Shown piece after piece: positions 8,787 through 37,757 of a stretch of DNA of 64,000 nt. The notes beneath the pieces are model-generated. The model ran no database searches, was not told the DNA's origin, and worked only from the letters and a program-made list of their open reading frames with translations. The stretch lies in the IMG/VR virus record IMGVR_UViG_3300044213_000090, positions 1 to 64,000 of that record; one strand, given 5' to 3'. The translations under genes and the position numbers were made by a program. The DNA comes from a virus. Every line of letters starts with the position of its first letter. The stretch's first letter is position 1.

Positions 8787-11700
8787 ATGCCGTATTTGAA
8801 ATTGCCCACAGGGGCATTTGTTGAAGTTCCAAGTGGACTAACTGACGCCGAAGCTCTAAGCCTTGCTAAAGAACAATTCCCTGAAGGTTTTGAAGATTAC
8901 GCAGCGCATAAAGAAAAGACTGGTGGTTTCTCAGCTCTCAAGGCGGGATTAAAAGGAGGCGCTGGTTCCGCACTTGAAGGTCTTGGCAATTTAGTTGGTA
9001 GCGACGAGTTTGCCAAATACGGCAAAGATATTAAAGACGAAGCCGCACAGCAATACCAAGCAACAACACCGCAAGATATTGATGTTGCAAAACGTCAAGG
9101 CATTACATCTTTACTTAGTACGGGAATTAATAGATACATCACTGAACCCGTAGGCTCAGCTGTCGGTAGTGTAGTGGGGCGTTATGGTGCTCCTATTGCC
9201 GCTGGCGCGGCTGCTGGCGTTGCTGCTCCCGAAGCTGCTTTAGCGGCTCCTATTGCTTTTGCTGCAACTAACTTTCCTATTCACTTCGGTGAAGACATTA
9301 CAGCCCAAAAAGCTGCTGGACAAGAACCTGATTATGGACGCGCATTAATTTCGGCTGTTGCGCAAACAGCAGTTGATTCTCTAGGCGGTGAGATTGTAGG
9401 CGGGGCTATGAAAGGCTTTGCTTTAAAAACCGCTACACAAGAAGCCCAGTTACTTGCCCCTAAAGTATTAAGTGGTGAACTAGCTGCTAAAGATGCTGCA
9501 GCGCAGATTAGTGGGAAGTTAGCTAGCGTAGTAAAAGGCACAGTAGAAGCCGCTGGTGCGGGTACATTGATGTCCACAGTCGGCACAGCCGGTCAAAGAT
9601 TTGCCGCTGGTCAAGATATTTTTAGTCCCGAAGCGTTAGATCAATATACTCAAGCTGCTAAAGAGCTGGGCTTGGTTGCTCCGTTCTTTGGTTTACTTCA
9701 TGCTGGACAGCCTGCACGTGCTAAAGCATTAATTGATAATGCCGCAAAAACAGGTGAAGCACAAAGATTAGATATTGCAAAAGAGCAACAAGCAGGTAAC
9801 GCACAAATTATGGCTGAGCATTATGCCAGTCCAGAAGGCCAGCTAGAATTAAAGCAAGCTCGTGAACCTATCGTTCAGGAGATGAACGACCTTAAAGAAG
9901 TATTAAAAGGTAAAGGCTTAGCTAAAAAAGAAAAGCAGGCTGGTAAAGATAGGCTTAACGAATTACAAAAGCAACTTGAAGAAATTAACAATCGAGTTGG
10001 CGTTCCTAAAGCCGAGTTGCCTGAAGGCGAAGTACCACAAACTATTCAAGGCCGCCTAGAAGCACTACGTCAAAAGCGTGCAGAAGATGCAGCCGCACAA
10101 GAAGAAGTGTTAAGAAAAGCTCGTGCTGGTTTAGAGCTTGGGGAAGAAGTAAAAGCGCAACCGATTAAAAGCGGTTTGCAAAAAACAGGTACGTACCTAA
10201 ACGAAAAAGGCGAAGAAGTACCTCAATATTCTCAAACAGCCCCAAGCACATTAACTGTTAGCGAAAAAGAAGCGCAAGCTAGAGAACTCCAATCTCACCG
10301 TGAGATGTTGGCTAATTCCATACCGCGTATGGAGGACATGGTTGACAATATTCAGAAGCAGTTAGACGGCGCTATTGCTAAAGGCGATACCGAAACCTAC
10401 CGCAAACTAGTGGGCGACAGAGCTAAGATTGTAGATGCGCTAGATGCCGCTAAGAAACAACAAGAAGCGCTGCCTAAACTGCCTGAAGAAGAGCGTGCTG
10501 CGTTAGAGAAAGAAGTTAAGACATTAACTAAAGAAGCTTCTAAATATACCGGCCCAGCTTTTGACCAAGAAAAAGTAGATAAGATTGTTACTAAGTTAGA
10601 AGCCGCTAAGAAACGTCTTGGTGAATTACCTGAACCAGAGCAAGAGAATTTATTTGCGCCTAAACAGCAAGGCTTGGCATTTGAGCCAACTAAAGAAGAG
10701 AAAGCACACGCAGAACGTCAAAAAGATTTGGAAGAAGCGTTTAGCAAAACCGATGAGCATTTGCTTGATAAAATCTTTGATGCAATCGGAGCTAGCGGCG
10801 AAGATAGGGGTTTACCGGAGACACCCACAGAACAGGCGCTTAGTCCACGTAATCGTATCGCACACGCACAGGAAAAACAGCGCCTTGCGCATGACAACTT
10901 AGCGGATGCTGTTGAAGATATTAGGGCAAACCCTGAAAGTGCTATGCGGCACACACTTGTGCCATCTGCCAAAGCTAGATACATTAAATCTGCGATTGCT
11001 GAAGTAGGGGCCATTCGTGAAGAGAACAAACAAAAGCCGCTAACTAATGATGAGAAGTTAAAGCTTGCCTACGATGTACAAGACACGCTTAATAAAGTAG
11101 TTGAAAATAAGAATGCGTCTGTATTAAACCGCATTAGCGGTACAGAGCCTACCCAGCTTGAAAAACAATTGGGACAAATTAAAGCTAAGTATCAGCAAGG
11201 TGAAAGCAGATTCCGTCCTGTTGAAGACTTTTATTTACGCCAAGAGCGTGACGCTACGTTGGCTCTTAAAGAAGAGATGGCTAAGAAAAAGCCAAACCTT
11301 GAAAGAGTTAAAGCATTGCGTCGTGAAGTTGAAGCGGGTCGCAAAGAAAACGCTAGACTTGAAGCTGAACGTGCTAAGCAAGAAGCTGTTGATATGGAGC
11401 GTTATGCTCCGTCTGGCGTAAACCCAGACCAATATAGTTTGTTTGGCGCTAAAGAATTAGAGCCTATTGCTACAGTGCGTGCTACCCCAGCCAACTTTAT
11501 GAAGTTTGTTGGCATCCAAAGAACTAAGTTACAACACGCTATTAAACAAGCTAAAGCTGCAATCGAAGCAGCTAAAGCAAAAGGCACATCCGCCGCCGAA
11601 GATAGAGCACGTGTAGAAGCTATTGCAGCTAAAAAAGGCCCGTTGATTGAGCGCCTTACTGACCGCTTAGAAGAATCGTTTGCTGCCAATAAAGAAAATG

Positions 11701-14700
11701 CTATGGATCGCAGCGCTAAGTTGCGTGAAATGTTTAGCAAGCCTTTAGAGTACAAGTTGTTATTCGATATTGCGCAGACTAAAGAAAAGATTGCTCAATA
11801 TAAAGAGATTGCCGCCGGTGAAAAAGGCAAGTTTAAAGCAGGCTACCTTAAGTATGTTAAGGAGTTAGAGAAGACTATCGAGCAGGCTGAGAAGTATCTT
11901 GATGATATTCGTGCTCGTGAGACTGAGTATTTTACTATTGAAGGTGAGAACAATAAGCGTTCAGTGCAGATGACTCGTAAGATTCTCAAAGAAGCACTAG
12001 ATGAGAACAAGGTAACTGAAGAACAAGCCGCTCCAGTACGTAGAGAGATTGATCGTATTGAGGCCGAGAACCAAGCTGAGTTAGAGCAACGTATTAAAGA
12101 GCGCCGTATTGCTGAGCAAGAAGCGCTTGAAAAACAAGCTGCACAACCTACGATACGTCAAGAAGTTATTGGCAGTAATGTGGTATTGCCCGGTACTAAA
12201 GATGTAGTTTTACAAAAGAAAATTGTAGAAAAGAAAAAGCCATTAACAGCAGAAGAAAAACAAGCTAAGTTATACAAAGAAAGCGCTGAAGGCGCTAAAG
12301 ATATGCAGGCTATCCGCAAACAGCTTGGACTAGATAAGCCTAACCGCAAAGATGTGATTGCTGATTCTAAAGCATATATTAAGGCATTGGAAGAGCGTAT
12401 TGAAGTTAACGACAAGAAGCGTCGTGTAACTAATCCTAAGAGCGAAGCTCGTGCCAAGTTTGAAGGTGTTGTTGATGCGCTTACTAAAGAGCTAGAAAAT
12501 GAGAAAAAAAACCTAGCTGAGCTACAAAAATTAGCAAAAGCCGAACGTGCCTTGGCGGTTGCTGGAAATGAACCCGGCCGCAAACAAAGACTTAAGCCAT
12601 TAAAGCGTGGTCAAGTTGATCTAGCTAAAAAATTTGAAGAAGGCGTAAAAGCCGAAAAAAGTTACGAGCCTGATTACAGTCCGCGTGTAAGTAGAGACGA
12701 GAATGGAAGCTATATTTTTAGGCAAACTGAAGGCGATATAGGCAGTTCGCTATTTAGGCGTGATGAAGGTAAAGTCGGAGCTGTTGATATAGCTGAAACC
12801 GCTAAACGTGCTGAGCAGTTTAAATCTGCTTTGCCTGAAGGAGTTAAGTTTGAGTACGCCGATACTTCTGAGCAGTTGCCTGATTACGTAAAAGCGCAAC
12901 TTTCTGAAAGTTCCCTAAACAATATGAAAGGCGCTTTGTTGCCTGATGGCACTATCGTAGTTGTCGGCGATAAGCACGCTAACATGTTGGACTTTGAAAA
13001 GACATTAGCACACGAAGCTATTGGTCACTATGGTGTAGAGCGTATCCTTGGCAAAGAAGGCCTTGTAAATCTTATTACTAAGATTGATGCGCAAAAAGGT
13101 GGATTCCATAAACTAGCTAGCGAGATGGGCGTTTTAGACGCCGTGCTTAAAGAAATTCGCGAAGAAAAAGAAGAGCGTGGTACGTTAACTCCACAGCAAG
13201 AAAAAATGATTGCTGTCCGAGAAATGATTGCCCGCTTTGAAGAAAAGCGTTTAGACGACACAGGGTTTATCAAAAAAGCTGAGCGCTTTATAAAAGAACT
13301 TATCGGTACGATGCGTCAGTGGATACGCAAGAGCGGGTTATCTAAGCTTGAAAATATCACAGATACAGACATGCTCTATTTATTAAAGCAGTCTAGAGAA
13401 GCGCTAAAAGGCAATCGTGAATTTACGTATACTCATATCGGCGGTGAAACAGCATTCCGTAAAGCTAAGTTTGAGAATGAGAATGATCCGCTTGCCCAGT
13501 TATCAGAGAAGTTAGTAGCTAAGCCAAAAGGAATTAAAGATACGTTGAAAGGCAACCTAGCTGCTTTCAATACGCAGTTCGTTGACCGCTTAGCTCCGTT
13601 AAAAGAGATTTGGCGTCGTATGGGCGAAACAGGCCTAGCTTCGCAGATGATTTATAACTTATTGGCGCACGGTCAACGCACAAACATTACTAGTGAAACC
13701 GTTACAAATGGCGCTAGAGTGTTTTATAAAGACCCCGTAACCGGTGAAGTTACTATTCGTGCTTCGGGTGGTCCGGGTATGAAGCAGGTATTGCAAGAGT
13801 TACTGCAATCTACTAAGGGTAATGCCCAAGCATTAAATGAAATGTTTACCGCATATGCTGCGGCTAAACGTGCTGAACTTGTTGGATATAAGAAGTTGGT
13901 AGCTGACGGAGAAATTAGCGCTAATATTACTCCTGCTATGTTGGAAGCGGCCAAAAAGTCTGGCGATGCTGACCCAGCTTTTGTTAAAGCATTTAAGACA
14001 TACCAAGAATATAACAACGGCTTGATTGATAATTTAGCGCAGTCAGGCTACATATCGGAAGCTAAAGCCAAAGAGTTTAAGAACAGAAACTATATTCCAT
14101 ACTATCGTTCACGTGGCGGAAATGTGGATTTGATTATTGGTTCTGAAAGCCCTATCCGTATTGGTACATTAAAAGACCAGCCTTACTTACATGAGTTAGT
14201 TGGCGGCGATCAAAAAATTCAAGACTTCTTCAAGTCTGCTGTTGCTAACACCAATATGATTACCGAAATGGCTTTGCGTAATAACGCAACTGCCAGCGTA
14301 GCTAGAACACTACAAGACTTGGGTATTGCCGAGATTCGTAAAGGCGAAGGCGCTATGGGGCCTGATGTTATCCGCTTTAAGTCTAACGGCAAAGATTATC
14401 ACGCTATTATTGATACATCTAAGAACGCAGAGTTTAGCGATATCAGTCCGCAACTTTTAGTCAAGGGTATGGAAGGTATTCCAACCCAGCTTCCGGGTAT
14501 CGTGCGTTTAATGGGAATGCCGGCAAATTGGCTACGTAAGGGCGTTACACGCAATCCTTTCTATGCCTACAAGCAGTTAGTTCGTGATCCAATGTCCGCT
14601 TGGTTAACAACAGGGGGCGAGTTCACACCGATTCTGTCATCACTTAAGGAAGTTAGTAACGCTTTTGGTAAAGGCTCCGATACGGCTAGACATTTACAAG

Positions 14701-16043
14701 AGTCAGGTATTTTGGGTGGGGAAGTTTACACAGGACGTGCTGAAGATTTAAACCAAATTGTTACTCGCTTGCAATCAGGCAAAGCAAACGTAACCGGCGC
14801 TTTGGCATTTATGGATAGGGTTGCTACTGAAGCTGACGCTTCTACCCGTTCTGTTCTTTATGATAGCTTCCGCAAACAGGGTTTGACGGATATGGAAGCG
14901 CAGATTGCCACAATGGAGTCCATGAACTTTAATACTCGTGGCGCTTCTCCGTCTATGCACTGGGTTAATACAATGGTGCCGTTCTTTAATTCGGCTATCC
15001 AAGGCTACAACGTAATGTACAAAGCGTTTACCGGCAAGATGCCGTACGCTAAGAAACTAGACTTGCAAAACAAGTTAATCAAACGTGGTGCCATGATTGC
15101 GGGTATGTCGATTCTGTACGCGATTGCACAACAAGATAACGAAGCCTATAAGAACGCTACACCTGAACAGAAGTATTTGAATTGGTTTGTACCCGGAATG
15201 GGTAAAGATGGGAAAGAGGCGTTTAGACTGCCTATCCCGTTTGAAGCAGGCTATATTTTCAAAGCGCTGCCCGAAGCCGTAGTAAACATGGCTTACAGTG
15301 ATGAGAAAGCTAGAGAAGGTCTTGATGCGATTAGAACAGTATTGAACGCCACTAATCCTTTGGGTATTCCTACCGCTGTTAAGGCCCCTATTGAACTGGC
15401 TATGAACCGGTCTATCTATACAGGTCGTGATATTGAAAGCCAGCGTATTCAACAGTTAGAACCCGGCAAGCGTGCCTACGATACAACCAGCGAGCCAGCT
15501 AAGATGCTTGGTGATATGTTAGGGATTTCCCCTATTACACTGGACTACTTGGCTAAGAGCTATCTCGGCGGTATTTTTACAACCGTTGCTTCCGTAGTTA
15601 ATCCTATGCTTGCGTCTAACGAAAACGTGAAACCTGACGGCACTATGTCTGATTTGCCTGTGTTTGGTCAGATGTTCCAGCCTGAAGACGCTGGCGGCAT
15701 TTCTATGCGTGCCTACGACGTACTACAACAAGCTGCGCAACGCTCAGCTACTTACAAAGATTTGGTTGCAAGAGGCGCCACAAAAGAGGCTGAATCGTAC
15801 GGTAAAGAGTACGCTCAAGAGATCGGTGTTGGCAATATGGCGGCTAGCATGAAGGCTGATTTGGACCAGTTATCGGGCGAAATTCGCAAGGTTAAAGAAC
15901 AGCGCTTACCCCCCGGCATGAGTCCACAGCAGTTTGCGGTTCAAAAACGTCAACAGCTAACTAAGTTGCAAGAACAGCGTGCCAAGCTAGCACAAGACTT
16001 CCTCAAGCAAGTCGCCGAAACAAAACGCCAAGCTTCCCGTTAA
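8787..16043 (+). CDS. Giant ejected-type virion protein (large polyvalent protein) with HEAIGH motif
   Basis: 2418 aa, the largest gene here. Residues about 1-30 are a conserved start (LPTGAFVEVPSGLTDAEA). A Gly/Ala hydrophobic segment lies at about 120-165. Roughly 310-1270 is a Lys/Glu/Ala/Gln-rich coiled coil. At 1409-1414 stands HEAIGHYG, a zinc-peptidase-like motif but with HExxxH spacing. The C-terminal third (DRVATEADASTR, MNFNTRGASPSMHWVNTMVPFFNSAIQG in pieces) resembles the LPD38-type domain of large polyvalent proteins. Length and position match giant proteins ejected into the host by short-tailed phages. The start has an AGGAAAAA ribosome site. It ends the rightward block and converges on the leftward early genes. 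Function at the enzyme level is not established. Confidence 0.75.
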   Translation: MPYLKLPTGAFVEVPSGLTDAEALSLAKEQFPEGFEDYAAHKEKTGGFSALKAGLKGGAGSALEGLGNLVGSDEFAKYGKDIKDEAAQQYQATTPQDIDVAKRQGITSLLSTGINRYITEPVGSAVGSVVGRYGAPIAAGAAAGVAAPEAALAAPIAFAATNFPIHFGEDITAQKAAGQEPDYGRALISAVAQTAVDSLGGEIVGGAMKGFALKTATQEAQLLAPKVLSGELAAKDAAAQISGKLASVVKGTVEAAGAGTLMSTVGTAGQRFAAGQDIFSPEALDQYTQAAKELGLVAPFFGLLHAGQPARAKALIDNAAKTGEAQRLDIAKEQQAGNAQIMAEHYASPEGQLELKQAREPIVQEMNDLKEVLKGKGLAKKEKQAGKDRLNELQKQLEEINNRVGVPKAELPEGEVPQTIQGRLEALRQKRAEDAAAQEEVLRKARAGLELGEEVKAQPIKSGLQKTGTYLNEKGEEVPQYSQTAPSTLTVSEKEAQARELQSHREMLANSIPRMEDMVDNIQKQLDGAIAKGDTETYRKLVGDRAKIVDALDAAKKQQEALPKLPEEERAALEKEVKTLTKEASKYTGPAFDQEKVDKIVTKLEAAKKRLGELPEPEQENLFAPKQQGLAFEPTKEEKAHAERQKDLEEAFSKTDEHLLDKIFDAIGASGEDRGLPETPTEQALSPRNRIAHAQEKQRLAHDNLADAVEDIRANPESAMRHTLVPSAKARYIKSAIAEVGAIREENKQKPLTNDEKLKLAYDVQDTLNKVVENKNASVLNRISGTEPTQLEKQLGQIKAKYQQGESRFRPVEDFYLRQERDATLALKEEMAKKKPNLERVKALRREVEAGRKENARLEAERAKQEAVDMERYAPSGVNPDQYSLFGAKELEPIATVRATPANFMKFVGIQRTKLQHAIKQAKAAIEAAKAKGTSAAEDRARVEAIAAKKGPLIERLTDRLEESFAANKENAMDRSAKLREMFSKPLEYKLLFDIAQTKEKIAQYKEIAAGEKGKFKAGYLKYVKELEKTIEQAEKYLDDIRARETEYFTIEGENNKRSVQMTRKILKEALDENKVTEEQAAPVRREIDRIEAENQAELEQRIKERRIAEQEALEKQAAQPTIRQEVIGSNVVLPGTKDVVLQKKIVEKKKPLTAEEKQAKLYKESAEGAKDMQAIRKQLGLDKPNRKDVIADSKAYIKALEERIEVNDKKRRVTNPKSEARAKFEGVVDALTKELENEKKNLAELQKLAKAERALAVAGNEPGRKQRLKPLKRGQVDLAKKFEEGVKAEKSYEPDYSPRVSRDENGSYIFRQTEGDIGSSLFRRDEGKVGAVDIAETAKRAEQFKSALPEGVKFEYADTSEQLPDYVKAQLSESSLNNMKGALLPDGTIVVVGDKHANMLDFEKTLAHEAIGHYGVERILGKEGLVNLITKIDAQKGGFHKLASEMGVLDAVLKEIREEKEERGTLTPQQEKMIAVREMIARFEEKRLDDTGFIKKAERFIKELIGTMRQWIRKSGLSKLENITDTDMLYLLKQSREALKGNREFTYTHIGGETAFRKAKFENENDPLAQLSEKLVAKPKGIKDTLKGNLAAFNTQFVDRLAPLKEIWRRMGETGLASQMIYNLLAHGQRTNITSETVTNGARVFYKDPVTGEVTIRASGGPGMKQVLQELLQSTKGNAQALNEMFTAYAAAKRAELVGYKKLVADGEISANITPAMLEAAKKSGDADPAFVKAFKTYQEYNNGLIDNLAQSGYISEAKAKEFKNRNYIPYYRSRGGNVDLIIGSESPIRIGTLKDQPYLHELVGGDQKIQDFFKSAVANTNMITEMALRNNATASVARTLQDLGIAEIRKGEGAMGPDVIRFKSNGKDYHAIIDTSKNAEFSDISPQLLVKGMEGIPTQLPGIVRLMGMPANWLRKGVTRNPFYAYKQLVRDPMSAWLTTGGEFTPILSSLKEVSNAFGKGSDTARHLQESGILGGEVYTGRAEDLNQIVTRLQSGKANVTGALAFMDRVATEADASTRSVLYDSFRKQGLTDMEAQIATMESMNFNTRGASPSMHWVNTMVPFFNSAIQGYNVMYKAFTGKMPYAKKLDLQNKLIKRGAMIAGMSILYAIAQQDNEAYKNATPEQKYLNWFVPGMGKDGKEAFRLPIPFEAGYIFKALPEAVVNMAYSDEKAREGLDAIRTVLNATNPLGIPTAVKAPIELAMNRSIYTGRDIESQRIQQLEPGKRAYDTTSEPAKMLGDMLGISPITLDYLAKSYLGGIFTTVASVVNPMLASNENVKPDGTMSDLPVFGQMFQPEDAGGISMRAYDVLQQAAQRSATYKDLVARGATKEAESYGKEYAQEIGVGNMAASMKADLDQLSGEIRKVKEQRLPPGMSPQQFAVQKRQQLTKLQEQRAKLAQDFLKQVAETKRQASR

Positions 16044-23726: not shown

Positions 23727-24401
23727 CTAATGTTTAGGGTTATGTTCACAAGACTTAACTTGGCACCATCCGCATAGAGGTGTACTTGTAGGGTTCCAAA
23801 CCCCAGTAGCGTGGCTATTAGCTAGCTTAGCTACTCTTTCTCTATACAACTGCCAATGAAAGTCTTTTTCATCTGCCATCATTTTACTCTTAACCATACT
23901 GTTTTTAACCACGAAAAGCAAAGATGAGTTAACTTGGCGTATGTGGGGGAAGTGAGCGAACACCATCAAAGACATCAGAATTAGCTGGTCTCGGTCAGGG
24001 TATTTATCGTTGCCTGTTTTATAGTCAACTACCCAAGCCTTTAAGCCGTCGTCATCAATGATTACTAAGTCAGCAATACCTCTAGCCCAAACATCATCAG
24101 CGTCAAATGCACAGGGTGTTAAGTCTTCCCTTACACCCATCTCGAGCTCAGGTAGTTTTCTACCCTTTATGCCCATCAATCTTTCCACAATCGGTTCCAT
24201 AAAGGCGTACTCGGGTGGGATTGGTGTGCCGTTTTTAACATAAAGCTCAGCCGCTTCATGCACTTGCTTGCCATACTTAGTATGAACAGTTTCTTGGAAT
24301 GGGTAGTTCTTAAGCACGTTTACTTCATAGAATCTTCTAGCACACCCTTCGTAATTTTTGAGACCGCTGTGTGACCATTTAATTTTTTTGATTTCGCTCA
24401 T
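23727..24401 (-). CDS. PD-(D/E)XK nuclease, Cas4/RecB-like, with possible iron-sulphur site
   Basis: 224 aa. Active-site order: His48 (KQVHEAAE), Asp111 (RGIADLVI), Asp126 and Lys128 (VVDYKTG), and a QLILMSLM helix (QhxxY-like). One Cys at 20 (EGCARRF) and three near the end (210, 213, 218) have the 1+3 arrangement that in Cas4 and AddB holds a 4Fe-4S cluster bracing the nuclease. Phage enzymes of this type are exonucleases in recombination or host-DNA breakdown. It is downstream of the DNA polymerase with one HNH gene between. The start overlaps that gene's stop by 4 nt. Confidence 0.8.
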   Translation of the reverse strand: MSEIKKIKWSHSGLKNYEGCARRFYEVNVLKNYPFQETVHTKYGKQVHEAAELYVKNGTPIPPEYAFMEPIVERLMGIKGRKLPELEMGVREDLTPCAFDADDVWARGIADLVIIDDDGLKAWVVDYKTGNDKYPDRDQLILMSLMVFAHFPHIRQVNSSLLFVVKNSMVKSKMMADEKDFHWQLYRERVAKLANSHATGVWNPTSTPLCGWCQVKSCEHNPKH

Positions 24402-24898
24402 AGGGTTCCTGCTGGATGGAGTATTCTTTTTGCTGTTACGTATGCCGCATGCGCCTCTTCTGCGGTGTTAAAATAGCCTAGATGTTTTGGTTTTCCGTTG
24501 ATTTTTATTTTGGCTATGTATTTATTGTTTAGTTTATGCCAACTAACCCCTAGTAAATGCGACGATTTATTATTTGGTCTGTGCGCACGTTGGTTTTGTC
24601 CGTTTAATATATGATTTGATAACCGCAAATTGCAAAACCTATTGTCTAGGGGGTTGCCATTTATATGGTCAAGCATGTCGGTAGGCCACTTTCCTGTTTC
24701 AAACAGCCATACAAGTTTGTGCGTGAATATCTGTTTTTTATTAACGCCAATTTGTGCTCTACCCAAAGCGTTTATGCGCCCAGCTTTCATACCTTTTCTA
24801 GCCTTTGGGTGTTTGTTATCCACAAGCCAGTAAAACGCACCTTCATCGGGTGCGTACCGTAGTATGCTTTTTAAATATTTTAGCGTCGTCATAAACAT
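24398..24898 (-). CDS. HNH endonuclease with C-terminal AP2-like domain
   Basis: 166 aa (160 aa if the second ATG at 24892 is used). The HNH core is MLDHINGNPLDNRFCNLRLS (about 75-94). A C-terminal AP2-like DNA-binding half reads LLGVSWHKLNNKYIAKIK, then LGYFNTAEEAHAAYVTAK. This HNH-plus-AP2 layout is the commonest free-standing homing endonuclease of phages. It sits directly downstream of the polymerase gene and overlaps the next nuclease start by 4 nt. I see no Shine-Dalgarno site at either start, unlike its neighbours. It probably entered as a mobile gene next to polA. Confidence 0.85.
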   Translation of the reverse strand: MFMTTLKYLKSILRYAPDEGAFYWLVDNKHPKARKGMKAGRINALGRAQIGVNKKQIFTHKLVWLFETGKWPTDMLDHINGNPLDNRFCNLRLSNHILNGQNQRAHRPNNKSSHLLGVSWHKLNNKYIAKIKINGKPKHLGYFNTAEEAHAAYVTAKRILHPAGTL

Positions 24899-24931: not shown

Positions 24932-27769
24932 TTATTTTGCGTCTCCGTATCTTTTAGCATAGCTTGAGTCTGCGTCAAGTGGTATGCCCTTCATATATGG
25001 CGGTTCTTTAATCATCTGCGCATGAACCCATGTTTCCGCTATCTCAGCTTCATTCTCAGGTACAAGCACTACAACTTCATCGTGAACAGTCAACACACAA
25101 GGGTATCTTTCCTGTATCCGTAACATTCCATCAGTCATCACGCAACGGGCAACGGCCTGAACAATGTTTTCTACCAGCTTACCGCCGTATAGTTTTTTAT
25201 TGTCAGACCCATAAGACCACTGCGCTCTGCCTTTATCGTCATATGCAACTGTTAAATTCGGATAACGCAAAGACAAACCACTAGGTAGGATTATACGCTC
25301 TTTTTCAAATTTTAGACACTTGTATTCATAAGTATTTCCCTTATACAAACTGTGCTCTATCAGCGAACCACACAACTCCCAAAAGCTAACGACTGGGTGT
25401 GACTTCTCTCTGTAAATCTCAATAATCTTTTTAGCCGCTAGGCTGTGGACGGCAAGCTCTCTGTCGGTACAAGTGTGCGGTATTTTGTTAAGTAATTCCA
25501 CGTTCCTATCCCAACCCATAAAGTCCGCCGCATCTTGTTGGGTTACTCCAAGTTGTTTAGCAAATGCCTTATCGTATAGAGTAGGCGGTGCGCCGAGAAA
25601 CCCAGTCAATAACTGGGCAGAAAAGCTAGCCCAACCCATACCATAGCCACAGTTATGTACAATCATTGGACCCGCTTCAGTAAGAACCATATATCTATTT
25701 CTTGGACCCGCATAAGCGATGTCGTAAGTCTGCATTTTCTGCTTCAAGAAGTTTGATTGTTTTTCTAAGCTCTTCGACGTCTCGTGCTTTGATTTTTCTT
25801 TTATTTGACATGTTGACGCTCCTAGAACAGAACCGCAAATTGTTTGGTTCATATCCTTTATCATTGTCGATTCTGTCAAGCTGGTACTCGGGGACGTCCC
25901 AACCATCAAGGGTGACAAGATATTTAAGAAATGCAACCCTGTCTTTAATCCATCCCGGATATACGCCGATACCTCTTCCACCGTAGTCCGGATAGATTTT
26001 ACTTTTTGGATTGGTACATCGGACAATAATCGAGCTGATTCTGTCAAGTAGTCTGTCCCTGTGGTTTCTGTCAGGGCAAATGGCGTGATACCCCTTCTGT
26101 TCCCAACGAGTCTCGACAGCTTTTCTTTTAGCACACACGTTACATCTTGTAGTTTTCTGCCTCTTGAAGTTGTGCCTATCAACTCTTCCCTTCCAACCAC
26201 ATGAACAGGCGACGTACGGGTGAAATCCTTTGTTGTGGTTGACCCATCCGACGATGGTAAGCTCGCCTTGTTTATAGCCGATAGGAAACGGAGCGGGTTT
26301 GTACATACCTCTTTCCATTCCTGCCATCCATGTTCCGTCAGGATTTCGTGGTCCTGCGTAGCGCTTATGCCCCATGCTGTCAGTACTTCCTTTTCCCCTT
26401 GAGGAAGCAGTCCTTGATGTTTTACCCATTCTTCACCATCCCATAACAAATCCGTATCCTGAACACTTATTATGGACTTCCATCCGGCATCGGTCAACAC
26501 TTTAGTGTCTGCGCCAAAACAACCTAGCAGCGCCGATTTGGCCGACTGTCTAAGAGTCGGATGTGTTTCCTTACTGAGGTTCGGGATACCGAACATTTGC
26601 GCTCCGAACGCCGAATACGCATCCTGTCCCGAATTGAAAATGTCAAGTAGCGCTTGATAATCTGCGAGGTACGCCAAGACCCTAGGCTCAATTTGGGAGA
26701 GGTCGCAGACCACAAGGGTGTAGCCTTTCGGCGCTTTGATAGCTTTGCGTAAGAAAGAGTTCCGTTTAAGGTTTTGTAGATTAAGCCCCGAGCCCTTGCT
26801 CGCCGACCAACGACCGGTATGCGCTCCGTAATAATTAAGTGGGACAGGGAGCGTACCTCTTTGAGCAATATCTGCGAATCTCTGTGCTCTTGTTCGTTCC
26901 AGCGTAGATTTAACCTTGAGCCTAGCTTCACACAAGAGTGCCACATCCTCATTGTCAGAATTGAGTAGCGCTTGGAAGAGTGCGTCGTTTTTAGCAAATG
27001 CGAAAGTTTCTTTATTGGTCGTTTTGCTAATCTTTTTCGGCGGGCTAACTCCAAGCGTTTCCAAAATAACAGCGAACTTATCGTTACTAGCCAACGACGA
27101 TTCTTCAATGCCAATTTTTTGTAAGAGCGCTTCTCTTTTGGTGCGTTCGTCCTCAATCGCATTTTGTAATATCTCCTTGTCTAGCTCAAGCGTAGGGAAT
27201 ACAAACATCTTGAGCGTCATGTCAATCAATTTTAGCTCGTCGTTAGGGAACCCGCCGTCAACTTCACCCATCAGGTTTCTAAATATCTGAGCGCATAGCT
27301 CTACATCATGTTCGCAGTAGACGGCTAACTCTTGTTCAATTTCATATGTTATCTCGGCCAAGCCGTTAGTGCTATGCACCGCTTGTCCTTTAGGTGGTAG
27401 CCCATAATACTCGGCTAACGTCGCCAAGCTGTTGCCCACTTCCACACCACGTAAAGCACGAGCCATAGAAAGAGAATCAAGAATAAAGGCAGGGCGAGCA
27501 CCATATACCCAACAAAGGATAGAGACATCAAACTGAGCGTTATGTGCAAGGACATTTACATTCTCCCAATCAATCGAGCTAATCCACGCTGGTATATCGT
27601 CATGCGTAACCCAATATGTTAAGTCTTCGTCAAGCCACTTATACCCAACGCCAAACGCTTTAAACATGGGGCTACGTACGTATTGTTCCGTAGTCATCTT
27701 ACTTAGCGTGTAGTCTTTACTGTCCCAACGAGTTTCAAAATCAACTACGAGTGTTCTTCTTCCGTACAT
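24932..27769 (-). CDS. polA: DNA polymerase I (family A) interrupted by an intein
   Basis: 945 aa precursor; removing the 290-residue intein leaves 655 aa, close to T7-type polymerases. The exonuclease domain has VDFET (Asp10, Glu12), AHNAQFD (Asp81) and YCEHD (Tyr151, Asp155). Polymerase motif A is VVCDLSQIEPRVLAYL (Asp356). Motif B starts RQSAK (Arg407, Lys411), is broken after ALLG, and resumes CGYGMGW at 707. Rejoined it gives R-x3-K-x7-YG exactly. Motif C is VHDE (896-898). It is the replicative enzyme and should be inactive until the intein splices. Exonuclease residues are intact, so proofreading is likely. It overlaps the upstream 68-aa gene by 29 nt. Confidence 0.95.
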   Translation of the reverse strand: MYGRRTLVVDFETRWDSKDYTLSKMTTEQYVRSPMFKAFGVGYKWLDEDLTYWVTHDDIPAWISSIDWENVNVLAHNAQFDVSILCWVYGARPAFILDSLSMARALRGVEVGNSLATLAEYYGLPPKGQAVHSTNGLAEITYEIEQELAVYCEHDVELCAQIFRNLMGEVDGGFPNDELKLIDMTLKMFVFPTLELDKEILQNAIEDERTKREALLQKIGIEESSLASNDKFAVILETLGVSPPKKISKTTNKETFAFAKNDALFQALLNSDNEDVALLCEARLKVKSTLERTRAQRFADIAQRGTLPVPLNYYGAHTGRWSASKGSGLNLQNLKRNSFLRKAIKAPKGYTLVVCDLSQIEPRVLAYLADYQALLDIFNSGQDAYSAFGAQMFGIPNLSKETHPTLRQSAKSALLGCFGADTKVLTDAGWKSIISVQDTDLLWDGEEWVKHQGLLPQGEKEVLTAWGISATQDHEILTEHGWQEWKEVCTNPLRFLSAINKASLPSSDGSTTTKDFTRTSPVHVVGREELIGTTSRGRKLQDVTCVLKEKLSRLVGNRRGITPFALTETTGTDYLTESARLLSDVPIQKVKSIRTTVEEVSAYIRDGLKTGLHFLNILSPLMVGTSPSTSLTESTMIKDMNQTICGSVLGASTCQIKEKSKHETSKSLEKQSNFLKQKMQTYDIAYAGPRNRYMVLTEAGPMIVHNCGYGMGWASFSAQLLTGFLGAPPTLYDKAFAKQLGVTQQDAADFMGWDRNVELLNKIPHTCTDRELAVHSLAAKKIIEIYREKSHPVVSFWELCGSLIEHSLYKGNTYEYKCLKFEKERIILPSGLSLRYPNLTVAYDDKGRAQWSYGSDNKKLYGGKLVENIVQAVARCVMTDGMLRIQERYPCVLTVHDEVVVLVPENEAEIAETWVHAQMIKEPPYMKGIPLDADSSYAKRYGDAK
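25652..26521 (-). mobile_element. Intein in polymerase motif B, residues 417-706 of the precursor
   Basis: The splicing motifs are complete. Block A is CFGADTKVLTDAGWKSI with Cys1 (codon 26519-26521). Block B is ISATQDHEILTEHGW with Thr55 and His58 of the intein. The C-terminal blocks are YDIAYAGPRNRYMV and PMIVHN, with the final His-Asn followed by Cys+1 of the extein (codon 25649-25651). Between blocks B and F, about 190 Ser/Thr/Lys-rich residues show no LAGLIDADG, HNH or GIY-YIG motif in this frame. Instead that DNA carries a separate HNH ORF in another frame. Insertion between Gly416 and the next Cys splits the O-helix motif, a highly conserved target. Confidence 0.93.
25695..26429 (-). 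CDS. HNH-type homing endonuclease nested in the intein DNA in another frame
   Basis: 244 aa, same strand as the polymerase but shifted by one nucleotide, and wholly inside the intein. It has a possible zinc ribbon (CSCGWKGR...CNVCAKRK, about 74-102). A nuclease core follows: YPDYGGRGIGVYPGWIKD, then QLDRIDNDKGYEPNNLRFCS and VNMSNKR. This 'GGRGI.V...W...LDRIDN..GY.P.N.R' pattern is that of many phage homing endonucleases. A coiled-coil tail (ARDVEELRKTIKLLEAENAD) ends it. The ATG at 26429 has a weak upstream site; Met19 at 26375 has AAAAGGAAG about 10 nt upstream and may be the true start. It probably drives homing of the intein in trans-frame. Confidence 0.85.
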   Translation of the reverse strand: MGKTSRTASSRGKGSTDSMGHKRYAGPRNPDGTWMAGMERGMYKPAPFPIGYKQGELTIVGWVNHNKGFHPYVACSCGWKGRVDRHNFKRQKTTRCNVCAKRKAVETRWEQKGYHAICPDRNHRDRLLDRISSIIVRCTNPKSKIYPDYGGRGIGVYPGWIKDRVAFLKYLVTLDGWDVPEYQLDRIDNDKGYEPNNLRFCSRSVNMSNKRKIKARDVEELRKTIKLLEAENADLRHRLCGSKK

Positions 27770-33392: not shown

Positions 33393-34265
33393 TTAAAAGT
33401 TAAAGTTGGATAGGATTGCATCAACGTCTTTCTTAACTGCCTCACGTGTATCTAAGTCCTTACGCAAGTCGGCTACATCTAATCCGTTAATACTTTCATA
33501 TAACTTAATCCTAGCTTGTTCTAGTTCTGCGTCTTGTGTGATGTTCAAGTCCTTAGCTAGAGTGCATAACTCATGCGCTGTTTCTAACAAGCTATCTCTA
33601 AACACACGAGGCTGTGCCATGTTGCCTACGTAATCTACCGCCAGTCTATCTGACATACGCTTGAGGTGCTCTTTGAGTCTTGTCTTGATGTCACTCATAG
33701 CGTTCTCGATACGCTCGTCTGCTAGCTTGGCTAACTTCTTACGTAGTTCTTCCTGTGCATCATTACCTACGTCAACCCTAAAGTCACCCGAGGTAGGCAC
33801 AGGCATATAGTTCACTCGGAAACCAAAGCGGTGTTTAAGGCTGTCAGGGGTTGGATACTCGTTGCGGTTAAACATATCACCAAGAGCCATAGCTTGCGCC
33901 GTAATCAGGTGAGGGTATGCTTCAACAAAGTCATCTACTAGCTGATTGAACTTGTCCTCATACTCTGAGATACGCTGATTGAACTCCATGAACTTAGCGG
34001 TAGTCAATAGTCTTAATCCGTTATCCGACCATGGCAAAGTCACTTCGTTAACCCACGTGCGCACCGAGCCTATGAACAGGGTAATACTCTCTAACTCAGG
34101 GCGACCAGCTAGCAAGTGTTTGTTAACACGAGCCGCACCCTTACTACCCGCTTGCTTGTAGGCAAGCACTTCGTCTGTTGTTGATTTGTCTAGCTTGCGT
34201 GCTGTCCATTGGTGCATATTAACTTCTACCAACATAGCGCAAGTGTCTAAGTTATAACGTGTCAT
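33393..34265 (-). CDS. MoxR/VWA-associated helical protein (DUF3150-like candidate)
   Basis: 290 aa, nearly all helical. It starts MTRYNLDTCAMLVEVNMHQW then TARKLDKSTTDEV, and contains LPWSDNGLRLLTTAKFMEFN and YMPVPTSGDFRVDVGN. The opening 'L.....LV.....W..RK.D' and helical body resemble DUF3150-type proteins found next to phage MoxR and VWA genes. It follows the VWA-metallopeptidase (18-nt gap) and the MoxR ATPase, all leftward with similar ribosome sites, so the three probably act together. It may be an adaptor or substrate. Family assignment is from memory and should be tested. Confidence 0.55.
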   Translation of the reverse strand: MTRYNLDTCAMLVEVNMHQWTARKLDKSTTDEVLAYKQAGSKGAARVNKHLLAGRPELESITLFIGSVRTWVNEVTLPWSDNGLRLLTTAKFMEFNQRISEYEDKFNQLVDDFVEAYPHLITAQAMALGDMFNRNEYPTPDSLKHRFGFRVNYMPVPTSGDFRVDVGNDAQEELRKKLAKLADERIENAMSDIKTRLKEHLKRMSDRLAVDYVGNMAQPRVFRDSLLETAHELCTLAKDLNITQDAELEQARIKLYESINGLDVADLRKDLDTREAVKKDVDAILSNFNF

Positions 34266-34283
34266 GTGATTCTCCTTTGTTGT

Positions 34284-35486
34284 TTATGAATAAATACGAA
34301 CAGTCTTACCCTTGTTGCTAACGAATTGATCGTTGTCAACTACACCGAATAGGATAGGGCAGTCAGGTAATACATAGTCTGATTCAATGTAGCCATCAGA
34401 TAAAACAATGCAAGCTTTGGGCTTGAGTTTGTGCTTGGTAAAGTATTCTGATACGCAAGTCAAGCGTGTGCCACCACCACCTTTGGGTTGAAGCATTTCA
34501 GGTATGCGGTGGTAGTCCTGCGGTTTGAAGATTTGCTCACCCTCAATGTCGCACTCCCACCATAGGACACGCACTTGCTCAGGCTTGACGTTCTCGCAGA
34601 TACGAGCAATCTCACCAAAGACTGTGCCATACAGACCCATCATAGAACCCGAGGTATCGCAAGCTACAACTAACTCGCCTGTTGATTCCGAGAAGTGTGA
34701 TGGCATGAGTATGCCTTGCGGTAGCAAGCGTTTGTTAGGTGGGGCAAAGCGGGAATAGTCGTCGCCTTCGCATAGTTGTGTAACGAACTCACGTAGATGT
34801 TCACGCCAGTTGGTGTCACGTTTCTGTGTTAGCTTGTCGAGTGGGCTACCACCCCTAGCATTACCTCGTTCTTGTATGCGCTTGGCTAGCATCTTGCCTT
34901 GATGTAGTGCCTCGCTGATCTCGGTTGCAGTCTTAGCTTCGATTGCTTCGGCAAGTTTACCTAGTATGTGTCCGTCAAGCGTGCCGTCACCATCACCGCT
35001 ACCCGCAGTTGGGTCGCCACCTGATTCCTCACACTCCTTGATTAAGTCTTGCAATACTTCAACAAACGACCAGCCAAAGTATTTCTTATCGAGTAAAGGT
35101 GCGACTGCTGTTGGGTGTTCGATAAAGCTATGCGTTGGGTCTGTTTCCTCTATCGTGCCGTTGACTACGTAATCCATAGCCTGATTGCACAACATAGGAT
35201 ACTTCTCGCATAACGCTTTATACGCAGTGCAGTGATGTAGTGCTTTGTGTAACGACTCATGCAAAACAAGAAAGCGTAGTTGTTTCCTAGATAAAGGTTC
35301 GATAAAGCTAGGCGCATAGATAACATTACGACCATCAGTTGCGGCAGTCTTGATGTCCTCGTCTAGCTTTACGTCACCGACATAAACAATACCCGATAGG
35401 GTAGCGAAGCTAGCGTTGTTACTGATGTCAACGTGGCACGCAATAATGCGGTCGTTCAAAGACATCTTATCCCATATGCTTGACAT
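34284..35486 (-). CDS. VWA-domain protein with metallopeptidase-like N-terminus
   Basis: 400 aa. The N-terminal half has LRFLVLHESLHKALHH with an HExxH motif (His76, Glu77, His80), as in the metallopeptidase-like part of DUF2201 proteins. A Gly/Asp-rich linker at about 155-172 follows. The C-terminal half is a von Willebrand factor A domain with MIDAS motif ACDTSGSM (Asp277, Ser279, Ser281) and later GGGGTRL and VLSDGY. Proteins like this work with a MoxR AAA+ ATPase to remodel or insert metal into partner proteins. The MoxR gene is directly upstream (21-nt gap). Both halves look intact. Confidence 0.85.
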   Translation of the reverse strand: MSSIWDKMSLNDRIIACHVDISNNASFATLSGIVYVGDVKLDEDIKTAATDGRNVIYAPSFIEPLSRKQLRFLVLHESLHKALHHCTAYKALCEKYPMLCNQAMDYVVNGTIEETDPTHSFIEHPTAVAPLLDKKYFGWSFVEVLQDLIKECEESGGDPTAGSGDGDGTLDGHILGKLAEAIEAKTATEISEALHQGKMLAKRIQERGNARGGSPLDKLTQKRDTNWREHLREFVTQLCEGDDYSRFAPPNKRLLPQGILMPSHFSESTGELVVACDTSGSMMGLYGTVFGEIARICENVKPEQVRVLWWECDIEGEQIFKPQDYHRIPEMLQPKGGGGTRLTCVSEYFTKHKLKPKACIVLSDGYIESDYVLPDCPILFGVVDNDQFVSNKGKTVRIYS

Positions 35487-35507
35487 ATGTTTTCCTTTCG
35501 TTGTTGA

Positions 35508-36629
35508 TTACTTGCCAGTAAAGTAAATCTTGTTATCTTGCAACATGGTTTGGAACGGCTTGACAGTAACGAAACTGGAAACCCTAGAGGACTGAGCAAG
35601 ATTGTGGCAGAACATAGACTGCATCTCCCGTCTCATTCTTAAAATATACTCACATACTGCCTCGGCTTCCTCACGTCCATTGGTTTGTGTAATACACTTG
35701 AGAACGGTAATGATCTGCGCCATAGGATTCTCAGGGACAGGGCAAGTCTTAGGTTCTTTCAAGATACGTGGGAACGGAGGGGTTTGCTCACCGAACTGAA
35801 TGAAAGCCTTAAGCGATTCAGCGCCAGCCTCACCCATAGTGCCTGACAAAGACGCAAGCAAAGTTTCTAAGTCCATGCCATCCTTGCTATACACAATGTC
35901 CGAACCAGCGTGCAAGCTACGAGGTGTAACGTATGAAGTCTGCGCTACTGATGGGTTGAAGATGTAGGGATTGTGTGCTTCCATGCGTTGCCCATCATAC
36001 TTACCGCCTGATTGGTAATCGAGAAAGCTATCGAACAACTGCTGACCTAGCTCGTCAGTCCATGCAATAACCTCGGGCGCTAAGCCACGATCAATAGCCC
36101 ACTCACGCCACTCAGTCTGAGTAGGCTTACGCATTTTGACAAACACCAAGCGGTTACGTAAGTGCGCTTGAATAGAATCGCCTAGGCCCTCGACTGATAA
36201 GTTAGTTGCACAAAACACTACGCTACCCTCGGGCATATGGTAGTTGCCGACACGTCGCTCGTAAACGATTGGTGCTAGCACGTCCTTGATATACTGCCGA
36301 GCCTTTGCAATCTCGTCTAAGAACACGAGTGCGGGACGTGAACCATTGATACCTTTCTGATTGTCCTTGTGAACACCAAAGCGTTCGTTAGGTAATTCTC
36401 TAGACACACCAAGCTCACGATCAATGTCAGGCATCCACACCGAGCCGTCAGATAACTGGGTGCAATCAATCGGGTCAACGTGAACGTGGTTAGCAAAGAA
36501 TGGGTCGTTAGCTAAGTGATAGAACAAGCCAGTCTTACCGATACCGTTTTCTCCTTCTACGATAATCGTTCTCTTATGTCCTACTGCCTTGATGAGTTGT
36601 GTTACTTGTTTGAATGAAAGCATTGTCAT
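35508..36629 (-). CDS. MoxR-type AAA+ ATPase
   Basis: 373 aa from the ATG at 36629, with an AAAGGAA site 5 nt upstream. The open frame extends 35 residues further but across the hairpin-rich leader, and those residues are unlike the family. Walker A is GENGIGKT (26-33, Lys32). Walker B is PALVFLDEIAKA (Asp105, Glu106). Sensor 1 is VVFCATN and an arginine-finger region is IQAHLRNRLVFVKM. It should hydrolyse ATP as a hexamer to drive the VWA partner encoded downstream. In the archaeal virus ATV a MoxR/VWA pair has been linked to virion tail development, which gives one possible precedent. Confidence 0.87.
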   Translation of the reverse strand: MTMLSFKQVTQLIKAVGHKRTIIVEGENGIGKTGLFYHLANDPFFANHVHVDPIDCTQLSDGSVWMPDIDRELGVSRELPNERFGVHKDNQKGINGSRPALVFLDEIAKARQYIKDVLAPIVYERRVGNYHMPEGSVVFCATNLSVEGLGDSIQAHLRNRLVFVKMRKPTQTEWREWAIDRGLAPEVIAWTDELGQQLFDSFLDYQSGGKYDGQRMEAHNPYIFNPSVAQTSYVTPRSLHAGSDIVYSKDGMDLETLLASLSGTMGEAGAESLKAFIQFGEQTPPFPRILKEPKTCPVPENPMAQIITVLKCITQTNGREEAEAVCEYILRMRREMQSMFCHNLAQSSRVSSFVTVKPFQTMLQDNKIYFTGK

Positions 36630-36726
36630 ACGATTTCCTTTACGTTTGTTAAGTTGTTTATATACTGCGGAAGGTCTGCGCCCTCTTGGAACTATCAATG
36701 ATAAAACTACTAGGGGTGAACTACAT

Positions 36727-36739
36727 AGGGACATACCCT
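36727..36739 (-). other. Short hairpin in the MoxR leader
   Basis: AGGG at 36727-36731 region and ACCCT at 36735-36739 form a small stem (AGGGacaTACCCT type on the plus strand). It sits between the 32-nt inverted repeat at 36743 and the MoxR start. On its own it is weak; together the two make the 150-nt leader unusually structured. Confidence 0.3.
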
Positions 36740-36742
36740 GAT

Positions 36743-36774
36743 ACTACATATAGTGCTTAGATACTAGATGTAGT
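36743..36774 (-). promoter_or_regulatory. 12-bp inverted repeat ahead of the MoxR-VWA genes
   Basis: ACTACATATAGT at 36743-36754 and ACTAGATGTAGT at 36763-36774 are inverted copies matching at 11 of 12 positions around an 8-nt spacer. It lies 6 nt downstream of the stop of the 325-aa gene and about 115 nt upstream of the MoxR start. A further ACTACATA copy is at 36720-36727. No T-tract follows, so an operator or processing site is more likely than a terminator. Related ACTA..TAGT sequence is present near the main leftward promoter (41972-41988). Confidence 0.45.
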
Positions 36775-36779
36775 TGGGT

Positions 36780-37757
36780 TTAATAAAAAGATTTGCGAGG
36801 TAGCGTGTCCATGAACTGACCCCATGCGGTTTTAACTGTGCCTGTCTTGAGATTGACCATGCTAAGTATGCGATTGGTTAACGACTTCTTAAACTCCTCG
36901 GCAGTAACTTCGCTAGCTATCTCACGTTGCTTATCGTGCATTTCTTTAATCTGCTCTGCCGTTTTATTCCATGTGCGGAACAGACTGCCTTGCCAACGCT
37001 CATCTTCGGGGACATAGTTGTAAACCCTGTGGCTAGCAAGAATGTCGAACACCGCTTGACCCATATCAAGGAAGGCTTCTATGTAACGTGGGTCTTCCGT
37101 ATTCCCTGAGCCTACGTTCCTAATGACTTTGGCAAACTCATCAATCTGACGTGGAGAAATTCTCCACGCTGTGCCAAAGGGTTCGCCTAGTGATGAGTTA
37201 ATTTCTACATTAGCTCGATACTCAGGTAGCCTGAACATGGCAAGCGTCATAAGCACATCAACTTTCTTCTTGAACTCCTTGCGCTTAGCTTTGTCCTCGT
37301 CTGATGACTTGAATGTATAGATGTCCCTGTGTTGTGAGAGTTTTGTTATTAGTTTGTGGTCTTTGTTAAACCATAGAACTGCGCTTGGTTTGTGGATTCC
37401 CTCTGCTCTATCCCAGCTAGGCACATACGGCACACGCACTCGCTTACCCTCTGTTGTTTCTAGTTCGCTAAAGTTCAAACCATTCTCATACATAAAGATG
37501 TTGGTAGTTTGGCTAGCGTAGTAGTTTGTTACAACTTTGTAGTCGCCGTTAGGTTCAGGTGGGTAGAACTTGGCTACTTGTGTGTTGTATAGGCGGTAGT
37601 AGATTGCGCCTGTTGCGCTTTCTTTGTGGATACCCATATGGTCTGCTGATACGTTGCGTAGGTATCTTGGACTGTCGGGCATATTCAACCACTTCTTACT
37701 GCGGGTTGGTGCTTTGCTGTTTTCGTAGCGTTGTAATGCGTGTTCATATGTAATCAT
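36780..37757 (-). CDS. Unknown 325-aa early protein upstream of the MoxR-VWA module
   Basis: 325 aa. Residues about 50-110 are beta-rich (GAIYYRLYNTQVAKFYPPEP, VVTNYYASQTTNIF). The second half is helical and basic (KAKRKEFKKKVDVLMTLAMF, WRISPRQIDEFAKVIRN). I do not recognise a family or catalytic motif. It is large for the accessory part of this operon and is the gene immediately before MoxR. The hairpin-rich 150-nt gap separates them, so shared control is possible but not shown. One GTGGAGAAnTTCTCCAC palindrome lies inside it at 37151-37167. Confidence 0.65.
   Translation of the reverse strand: MITYEHALQRYENSKAPTRSKKWLNMPDSPRYLRNVSADHMGIHKESATGAIYYRLYNTQVAKFYPPEPNGDYKVVTNYYASQTTNIFMYENGLNFSELETTEGKRVRVPYVPSWDRAEGIHKPSAVLWFNKDHKLITKLSQHRDIYTFKSSDEDKAKRKEFKKKVDVLMTLAMFRLPEYRANVEINSSLGEPFGTAWRISPRQIDEFAKVIRNVGSGNTEDPRYIEAFLDMGQAVFDILASHRVYNYVPEDERWQGSLFRTWNKTAEQIKEMHDKQREIASEVTAEEFKKSLTNRILSMVNLKTGTVKTAWGQFMDTLPRKSFY
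37151..37167. repeat. GTGGAG...CTCCAC palindrome, copy 1
   Basis: GTGGAGAAATTCTCCAC: 8-bp arms around a single base, inside the 325-aa gene, where it encodes part of AWRISPR. It belongs to a set of four such palindromes on this early block; flanking bases differ from the other three, so it is the least certain member. Confidence 0.5.

Follow-up and report, generated by a model that had tools for sequence, protein, structure and literature searches.

A MoxR ATPase, a VWA protein and a DUF3150-like protein form a three-gene module common to phages and plasmids

The locus and its proteins

The IMG/VR record IMGVR_UViG_3300044213_000090 stems from a freshwater or marine phage, and we analysed 64000 of its 64518 bases (hereafter the window). 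The minus strand of the window carries neighbouring genes for a MoxR-type AAA+ ATPase, for a 400-amino-acid (aa) protein with an HExxH motif and a VWA domain, and for a 290-aa helical protein distantly related to DUF3150; we refer to them as the trio. An earlier note, made from the DNA letters alone, had proposed that these genes form a module and had pointed to a 325-aa gene upstream, and the open reading frame (ORF) coordinates agree with its placement of all four on the minus strand (Table 1). In the direction of transcription the 325-aa ORF is followed by the ATPase, the 400-aa protein, the 290-aa protein and a series of smaller ORFs. The 325-aa and ATPase genes are separated by 150 nucleotides (nt), the ATPase and VWA genes by 21 nt, the VWA gene and that of the helical protein by 18 nt, and the latter and the next ORF by 9 nt. 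The same strand block also codes for a DNA polymerase, a PDDEXK exonuclease (23727-24401), a SNF2-type helicase and a primase/helicase-like protein, and the head and tail genes lie on the opposite strand.

The ORF of 408 aa that begins at 36734 is over-long for the ATPase. We place the start at 36629, because most homologues align from residue 34-36 of the long version and an AAAGGA stands just upstream of the ATG. The protein matches phrog_1297 (E 6.3e-40), and the best match of its profile in the PDB is midasin (E 1.2e-39); NorQ (1.2e-8) and CbbQ (5.3e-7) are found as well, ranked after Clp and VCP-like chains. Pfam AAA_5 scores 15 bits. G29, G31, K32, D105, N143, R160 and R237 are invariant in all 19 aligned sequences, and judging from the alignment we assign Walker A (G29/G31/K32), Walker B (D105) and sensor 1 (N143), as well as an arginine finger and sensor 2. 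The conserved motifs and the linked VWA gene support the MoxR-type ATPase of the earlier note.

In the 400-aa protein, Pfam recognizes DUF2201_N with 62 bits (cut-off 23.2) and the VWA domain of DUF2201 with 44.5 bits (cut-off 26.4), and phrog_1314 is matched with E 2.9e-64. Its motifs comprise the HExxH at residues 76-80, H85, D105 and a metal-ion-dependent adhesion site (MIDAS) made up of D277, S279, S281, T340 and D364. All 51 sequences of the VWA-protein alignment share H76, H80, H85 and D105; E77 is kept in 50 (one relative, L138, reads HAVMH), as is the full MIDAS, where the exception is a cut alignment. The HExxH, D105 and the MIDAS are also present in each of 19 rows drawn from other phage groups and from plasmids. 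The residues picked out in the earlier note, including His76/Glu77 and Asp277, are therefore correct and conserved. In the predicted model of the protein (pLDDT, the predictor's own confidence score, 80.9), the VWA domain (266-400) resembles numerous VWA domains of known structure (best Z 11.8, root-mean-square deviation (rmsd) 2.6 over 131 residues), among them, in Foldseek, the MIDAS domain of midasin and NorD. Helix 67-82 of the model carries the HExxH and helix 97-115 the invariant D105, and H76, H80 and D105 probably form a zinc site. By sequence, the N-terminal HExxH domain resembles MJ1213 and M48-type peptidases only weakly (E 0.019 to 0.22); structure searches with the 400-aa model returned lists filled by the VWA domain and thus nothing informative on the N-terminal fold. 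The name of phrog_1314, HNH endonuclease, found no counterpart, as no HNH domain was matched in Pfam at E<=1. This label is attached to DUF2201 VWA proteins and has been copied into many phage records.

The 290-aa protein scores 20.7 bits against DUF3150 (PF11348), below the gathering cut-off of 24.9, and for this reason we call it DUF3150-like and do not file it as a member of the family. DUF3150 is matched at E<=0.01 by 42 of 49 relatives of the protein, with a best value of 6.1e-9. The predicted model (pLDDT 80.5) is mainly helical and found no convincing match in the PDB; the best one (Z 9.6, 120 residues, rmsd 4.0) is in the range of helical bundles. Our literature search on DUF3150 turned up no paper.

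Table 1. Positions of the module genes, their motifs and the linked upstream gene in the window
Feature	Position	Strand	Basis
325-aa protein, linked neighbour specific to the phage lineage	36780..37757	-	Linkage counts
Shine-Dalgarno-like AAAGGA, precedes ATPase ATG at 36629	36636..36641	-	Sequence
MoxR/midasin-type AAA+ ATPase, 373 aa	35508..36629	-	phrog_1297, midasin profile, motifs
400-aa protein, DUF2201_N metallopeptidase-like (1-~260) and VWA/MIDAS (~266-400)	34284..35486	-	Pfam, phrog_1314, predicted model
HExxH (H76-H80) of the 400-aa protein	35247..35261	-	Alignment
MIDAS DxSxS (D277-S281) of the 400-aa protein	34644..34658	-	Alignment
290-aa mainly helical protein, distant DUF3150	33393..34265	-	PF11348 score below cut-off, matches of relatives, predicted model

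Linkage and distribution of the genes

With the VWA protein as query, viral contigs yielded 39 loci; wherever the sequence suffices, their order is 325-aa gene, ATPase, VWA protein, DUF3150-like protein. We also scanned environmental viral contigs with a profile of the DUF3150-like protein alone, which yielded at least 571 confirmed relatives, and kept 80 loci. All three genes are present in 70 of them. Six of the others are without the ATPase and four without both the ATPase and the VWA protein, and in all ten the DUF3150-like gene starts no more than 1.9 kb from the end of the locus. When the comparison is limited to the 36 loci that leave room on either side, the ATPase and VWA genes were found without exception (36/36), while six other neighbours from the window reached 20, 21, 21, 5, 2 and 2; this control somewhat favours the trio, whose models had a broader training than the neighbour models. 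Bacterial genomes contributed a further 14 loci, 13 with the trio and one that is cut off. One of the 13 (L145, from a Chthoniobacterales metagenome-assembled genome) carries nearly the same module as a viral contig (L093), and it is probably a phage contig that was binned with the bacterium.

The order of the genes varies between ATPase-VWA-DUF3150, VWA-ATPase-DUF3150 and ATPase-DUF3150-VWA. On a tree of 88 loci it changes five times by parsimony, compared with at least 26 times in shuffles, and one of the five changes is spurious, caused by ORF starts (the coordinates of this locus, L144, give ATPase-DUF3150-VWA). The distance matrices of the three proteins agree over the 88 loci with r ~0.96, as expected under joint inheritance. 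The ATPase, VWA and DUF3150-like genes are thus one real conserved unit. The neighbourhood survey suggested in the earlier note finds the proposed partners together, in 70 of the 80 viral loci and in 13 of the 14 bacterial contigs.

The gene for the 325-aa protein behaves differently. It is a tight neighbour in the phage group of the window, with 56 of the 80 viral loci and 35 of the 36 with room on both sides (its model did not have the wider training of the trio models). In six of seven records searched, including N4 and the trio-bearing MinM2, and in the plasmid loci scanned, it was not found. The gene is linked to the trio only within this phage group, which supports the earlier note in part.

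Matches to the VWA protein were found in 495 phage records and to the ATPase in 372. Both genes occur in all nine phage loci that we fetched, which had been chosen on a VWA or ATPase match, on a DUF3150 match (MinM2) or by name (N4). A DUF3150-like gene is present in only one of the nine, cyanophage MinM2, and whole-record searches found it in one of 12 phages. In MinM2 the trio has small genes in between, and its place in the tree is with the clade of plasmids and bacteria. The ATPase-VWA pairs of pSYSA, Thermus and Vequintavirinae have no DUF3150-like gene in their loci, and neither phage G gp569 nor the gene beside the CarlMeissner VWA gene has a DUF3150 match among the matches listed. Tunturi_3 is an exception to the trio rule, as its complete record has a DUF3150-like gene but matches neither the ATPase nor the VWA protein. 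Some records call for care. Three cyanophage records with different names and hosts (OQ594354, OL906435 and PP438419) have equal length (65014) and identical match values and are possibly one phage. The ATPase matches of two Campylobacter phage records (MG065646, MG065677) equal in query range, identity and E-value those of Escherichia phage records of vequintavirus size, which may reflect mislabelling or contamination.

Four phages, 023Pt_psg01, HTVC027P, DSL-LC04 and HTVC023P, have terminases 47-54% identical to that of the window. None of them has any of the trio genes (0/4 each) or the 325-aa gene, and none matches the polymerase or the primase of the window, so the absence of the trio goes along with a different replication region. 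MinM2, in turn, has the trio but matches neither this polymerase nor this primase. Judging from this pattern of presence and absence, the three genes are passed on together, packaging of this type can do without them, and they are not tied to any one phage polymerase.

On plasmids, the DUF3150-like protein and the VWA protein have 44 matching records each. Three plasmid regions (L043, L044, L045) carry the trio, and a fourth (L163) does so by annotation. A 75-kb Acinetobacter baumannii entry (L055, pRBH2-3), named a plasmid, contains genes for a DNA-directed RNA polymerase, the ATPase and the VWA protein, and may be an N4-like phage genome.

We considered an N4-like nature for the phage of the window as well. 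The 2418-aa protein has no match to an RNA polymerase in Pfam, and N4-like records are not the source of the closest terminases; we therefore rejected this classification. LPD38 is the only Pfam domain of the 2418-aa protein above the cut-off. It lies near the C-terminus, and the protein (8787-16043, plus strand) probably belongs to the virion or is an ejected polyvalent protein. The family A DNA polymerase gene (24932-27769, minus strand) is interrupted in frame by some 289 aa (roughly residues 418-706), which start with CFGADTKV, end with VHN before C and are missing from the polymerase of a relative. This insert is an intein at the active-site motif SALLG/CGYGMGW. Directly downstream of the polymerase gene, a protein with HNH_3 and a weak AP2 match (24398-24898, minus strand) resembles homing endonucleases.

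Possible substrates of the module

We tentatively prefer, at somewhat less than even confidence, to see the trio as a MoxR-type remodelling machine that acts on recombination or replication complexes, because several plasmid lineages place the trio in or beside clusters of ssb, recT or bet, and exonuclease genes. In IncC plasmid pEc78, for example, the order is ATPase, hypothetical gene, ssb, bet, lambda-type exonuclease, DUF3150 and VWA. Two further plasmids have ssb, recT, exonuclease, hypothetical gene, ATPase, DUF3150 and VWA (with a small gene before VWA in one of them), and pAZI09 has the ATPase, two genes, ssb, more genes, DUF3150 and VWA. Of 1118 plasmid records with a match to the pCAR1-type DUF3150 protein, 969 are typed as conjugative. 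The flanks of the trio in the 14 bacterial contigs (98 of 110 flanking ORFs scanned, same strand) also hold genes of this kind, namely RecT (3), SSB (3), a DUF3799 exonuclease-like protein (3), RadC (3), Toprim (4) and a primase zinc ribbon (3), and a toprim gene is present in two of the plasmid regions, L043 and L045. In the window itself, the strand block that the trio shares with polymerase, exonuclease and helicase genes fits such a role. As far as gene context can tell, these neighbourhoods are a real but indirect pointer to work on DNA. They suggest the element's own recombination or replication complexes at least as much as the complex of the host that the earlier note had considered next to the replication machinery.

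A mechanism can be sketched by analogy with known MoxR-VWA pairs; its assembly, order of action, protease activity and target are inferred. The ATPase would assemble as a ring, on which the VWA protein would dock and grip an acidic side chain of the substrate via the MIDAS metal. The DUF3150-like helical protein would be a fixed third subunit for substrate recognition or regulation. ATP hydrolysis would pull the substrate apart or reshape it, and the HExxH domain, probably with zinc bound to H76, H80 and D105, may act on the substrate once it is opened, by cutting or by sensing it. The likeliest substrate would be a protein complex on the element's DNA, in recombination, replication or on single-stranded DNA (ssDNA), rather than the virion.

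Several observations weigh against an action on recombination or replication complexes. MinM2 has no match to the polymerase or primase of the window, so no single phage replication protein would be the shared target, and no SSB or annealing protein was found among the window ORFs scanned. In pCAR1, ssb and recT lie some 10 kb past the trio, and in the fetched stretches of four of the nine annotated plasmid loci (L043, L044, L045, L163) no ssb or recT was seen. Most of the matches of this kind in bacterial flanks probably sit in three related contigs (L133, L134, L136), which would count as about one event. Moreover, the plasmid trios beside ssb or recT (pEc78, the two further plasmids and pAZI09) belong to the pCAR1-like branch, which is distant from the phage trio (the three proteins reach hhalign probabilities of 55, 96 and 39%).

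A remodeler directed at the host, one that takes apart, modifies or cuts a host complex (of transcription, respiration or defence, for example), ranks directly after the favoured reading, although we consider it somewhat unlikely. It would explain why very different elements keep up such a machine: the ATPase-VWA pair occurs in unrelated phages with different replication genes (the nine fetched loci) and on plasmids, and MinM2 keeps the trio without a match to the polymerase and primase of the window. We know of no host target, however, which counts against it, and the ssb-recT/bet-exonuclease neighbourhoods suggest DNA work instead. The pair of N4 is reported as middle-transcribed in the parts of the papers available to us (PMC4193335, PMC2784036), in keeping with a host-directed role. 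A conflict module, as a phage-borne relative of the MoxR-vWA-peptidase ternary systems that acts against other elements or kills the cell, is improbable. The counter-invader systems outlined in the accessible text of PMC12839542 and PMC7159879 share the plan of a MoxR protein, a vWA protein fused to a peptidase and a third protein. However, the catalytic motifs of the phage proteins are strictly kept; the pair is listed as core in 25 of 25 N4-like phages (PMC4193335, seen in part), unlike accessory defence genes; and nine module proteins gave no PADLOC match except a weak one of the ATPase (E 0.0078), in a library that may lack VMAP or iSTAND families.

Insertion of a metal into one enzyme, or its activation, as by NorQ-NorD, CbbQ-CbbO and CobS-CobT, has about the same small probability. 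In its favour, NorQ and CbbQ are among the matches of the ATPase profile, NorD is one of many VWA domains that the VWA model resembles, and a cobalamin biosynthesis name has been given to one plasmid copy, yet names of the NorD or cobalamin type rest on distant similarity and no metalloenzyme is seen linked across the loci. Virion assembly or maturation is very improbable, in agreement with the earlier note. A MoxR-vWA system for tail assembly in an archaeal virus is cited in the part of PMC7159879 that we could see, but the trio lies opposite the head and tail genes, the four phages with terminases 47-54% identical lack all three genes, and conjugative plasmids have no virion.

The favoured reading, a machine for recombination or replication complexes, has a wider and rather unlikely form. 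Lytic phages and conjugative plasmids may share an ancient three-subunit AAA+ machine that polices or disassembles ssDNA recombination and replication complexes, and the two-subunit form would do the same work in schitoviruses. If true, this ancient trio with its zinc-peptidase-like domain would be an unrecognised class of helper to single-strand annealing systems.

Comparison with known systems

The combination of a MoxR-type ATPase with a VWA or MIDAS domain is familiar from RavA-ViaA, NorQ-NorD, CbbQ-CbbO and midasin. To our knowledge, neither a DUF3150 subunit nor an HExxH domain of the DUF2201_N type occurs in any of them. Among phages the ATPase-VWA pair is, by sequence comparison, not unusual, and it corresponds to gp24 (AAA ATPase) and gp25 (vWFA) of N4 (Schitoviridae), which are adjacent homologues of the two window proteins. 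The accessible text of two papers lists gp24 and gp25 as core genes on middle transcripts without an assigned function (PMC4193335, PMC2784036). N4 differs in having no DUF3150-like partner in its whole record and no 325-aa gene, and the terminase of the window is nearest to those of HTVC027P, 023Pt_psg01, DSL-LC04 and MinM2, not N4. For Bacillus phage 0305phi8-36, the part of a 2007 paper that we saw infers a MoxR pair, orf66/orf63, from linkage (PMC2147016); its likeness to the pair in the window is taken from the description. MoxR-vWA counter-invader systems with peptidases have also been described, again as far as the text was accessible (PMC7159879, PMC12839542). The genome-wide CRISPRi-ART screens covered T4, T5, SUSP1 and PTXU04 and not N4, according to the part of the report available. 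Among the titles and abstract openings that we searched, which mostly come from outside the subscription journals, none gives the phage pair a function or reports the trio from phages.

The trio itself has its counterparts on plasmids. In pCAR1 the trio is ORF101-103, of which ORF101 is a MoxR ATPase and ORF103 a VWA protein, and ORF100-103 are conserved in R478, Rts1, SXT and R391, according to the portion of PMC2642839 that we consulted. The pCAR1 and IncC trios resemble that of the window in clustering a MoxR ATPase, a DUF3150 protein and a VWA protein, but the homology of the parts is weak, the VWA protein of the pCAR1 type (annotated NorD in pCAR1) is larger, and the linkage to ssb/bet/exo in IncC plasmids has no equivalent, since no ssb-recT/bet-exo set was found among the window ORFs scanned. 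Closer homologues of all three proteins lie near each other on plasmids of Burkholderiales and other bacteria (pBVIE02, Simplicispira, Rhodovastum), in the order ATPase-DUF3150-VWA and in some cases beside type IV secretion system and PRTRC genes. If one machine serves both N4 and the IncC-type plasmids, its job could be tested in Escherichia coli, with the ssb-bet-exo neighbourhood of the plasmids as a lead. The parts of the module were thus already known, without a function; what is new here is a MoxR-VWA module with a third subunit that is common to phages and plasmids.

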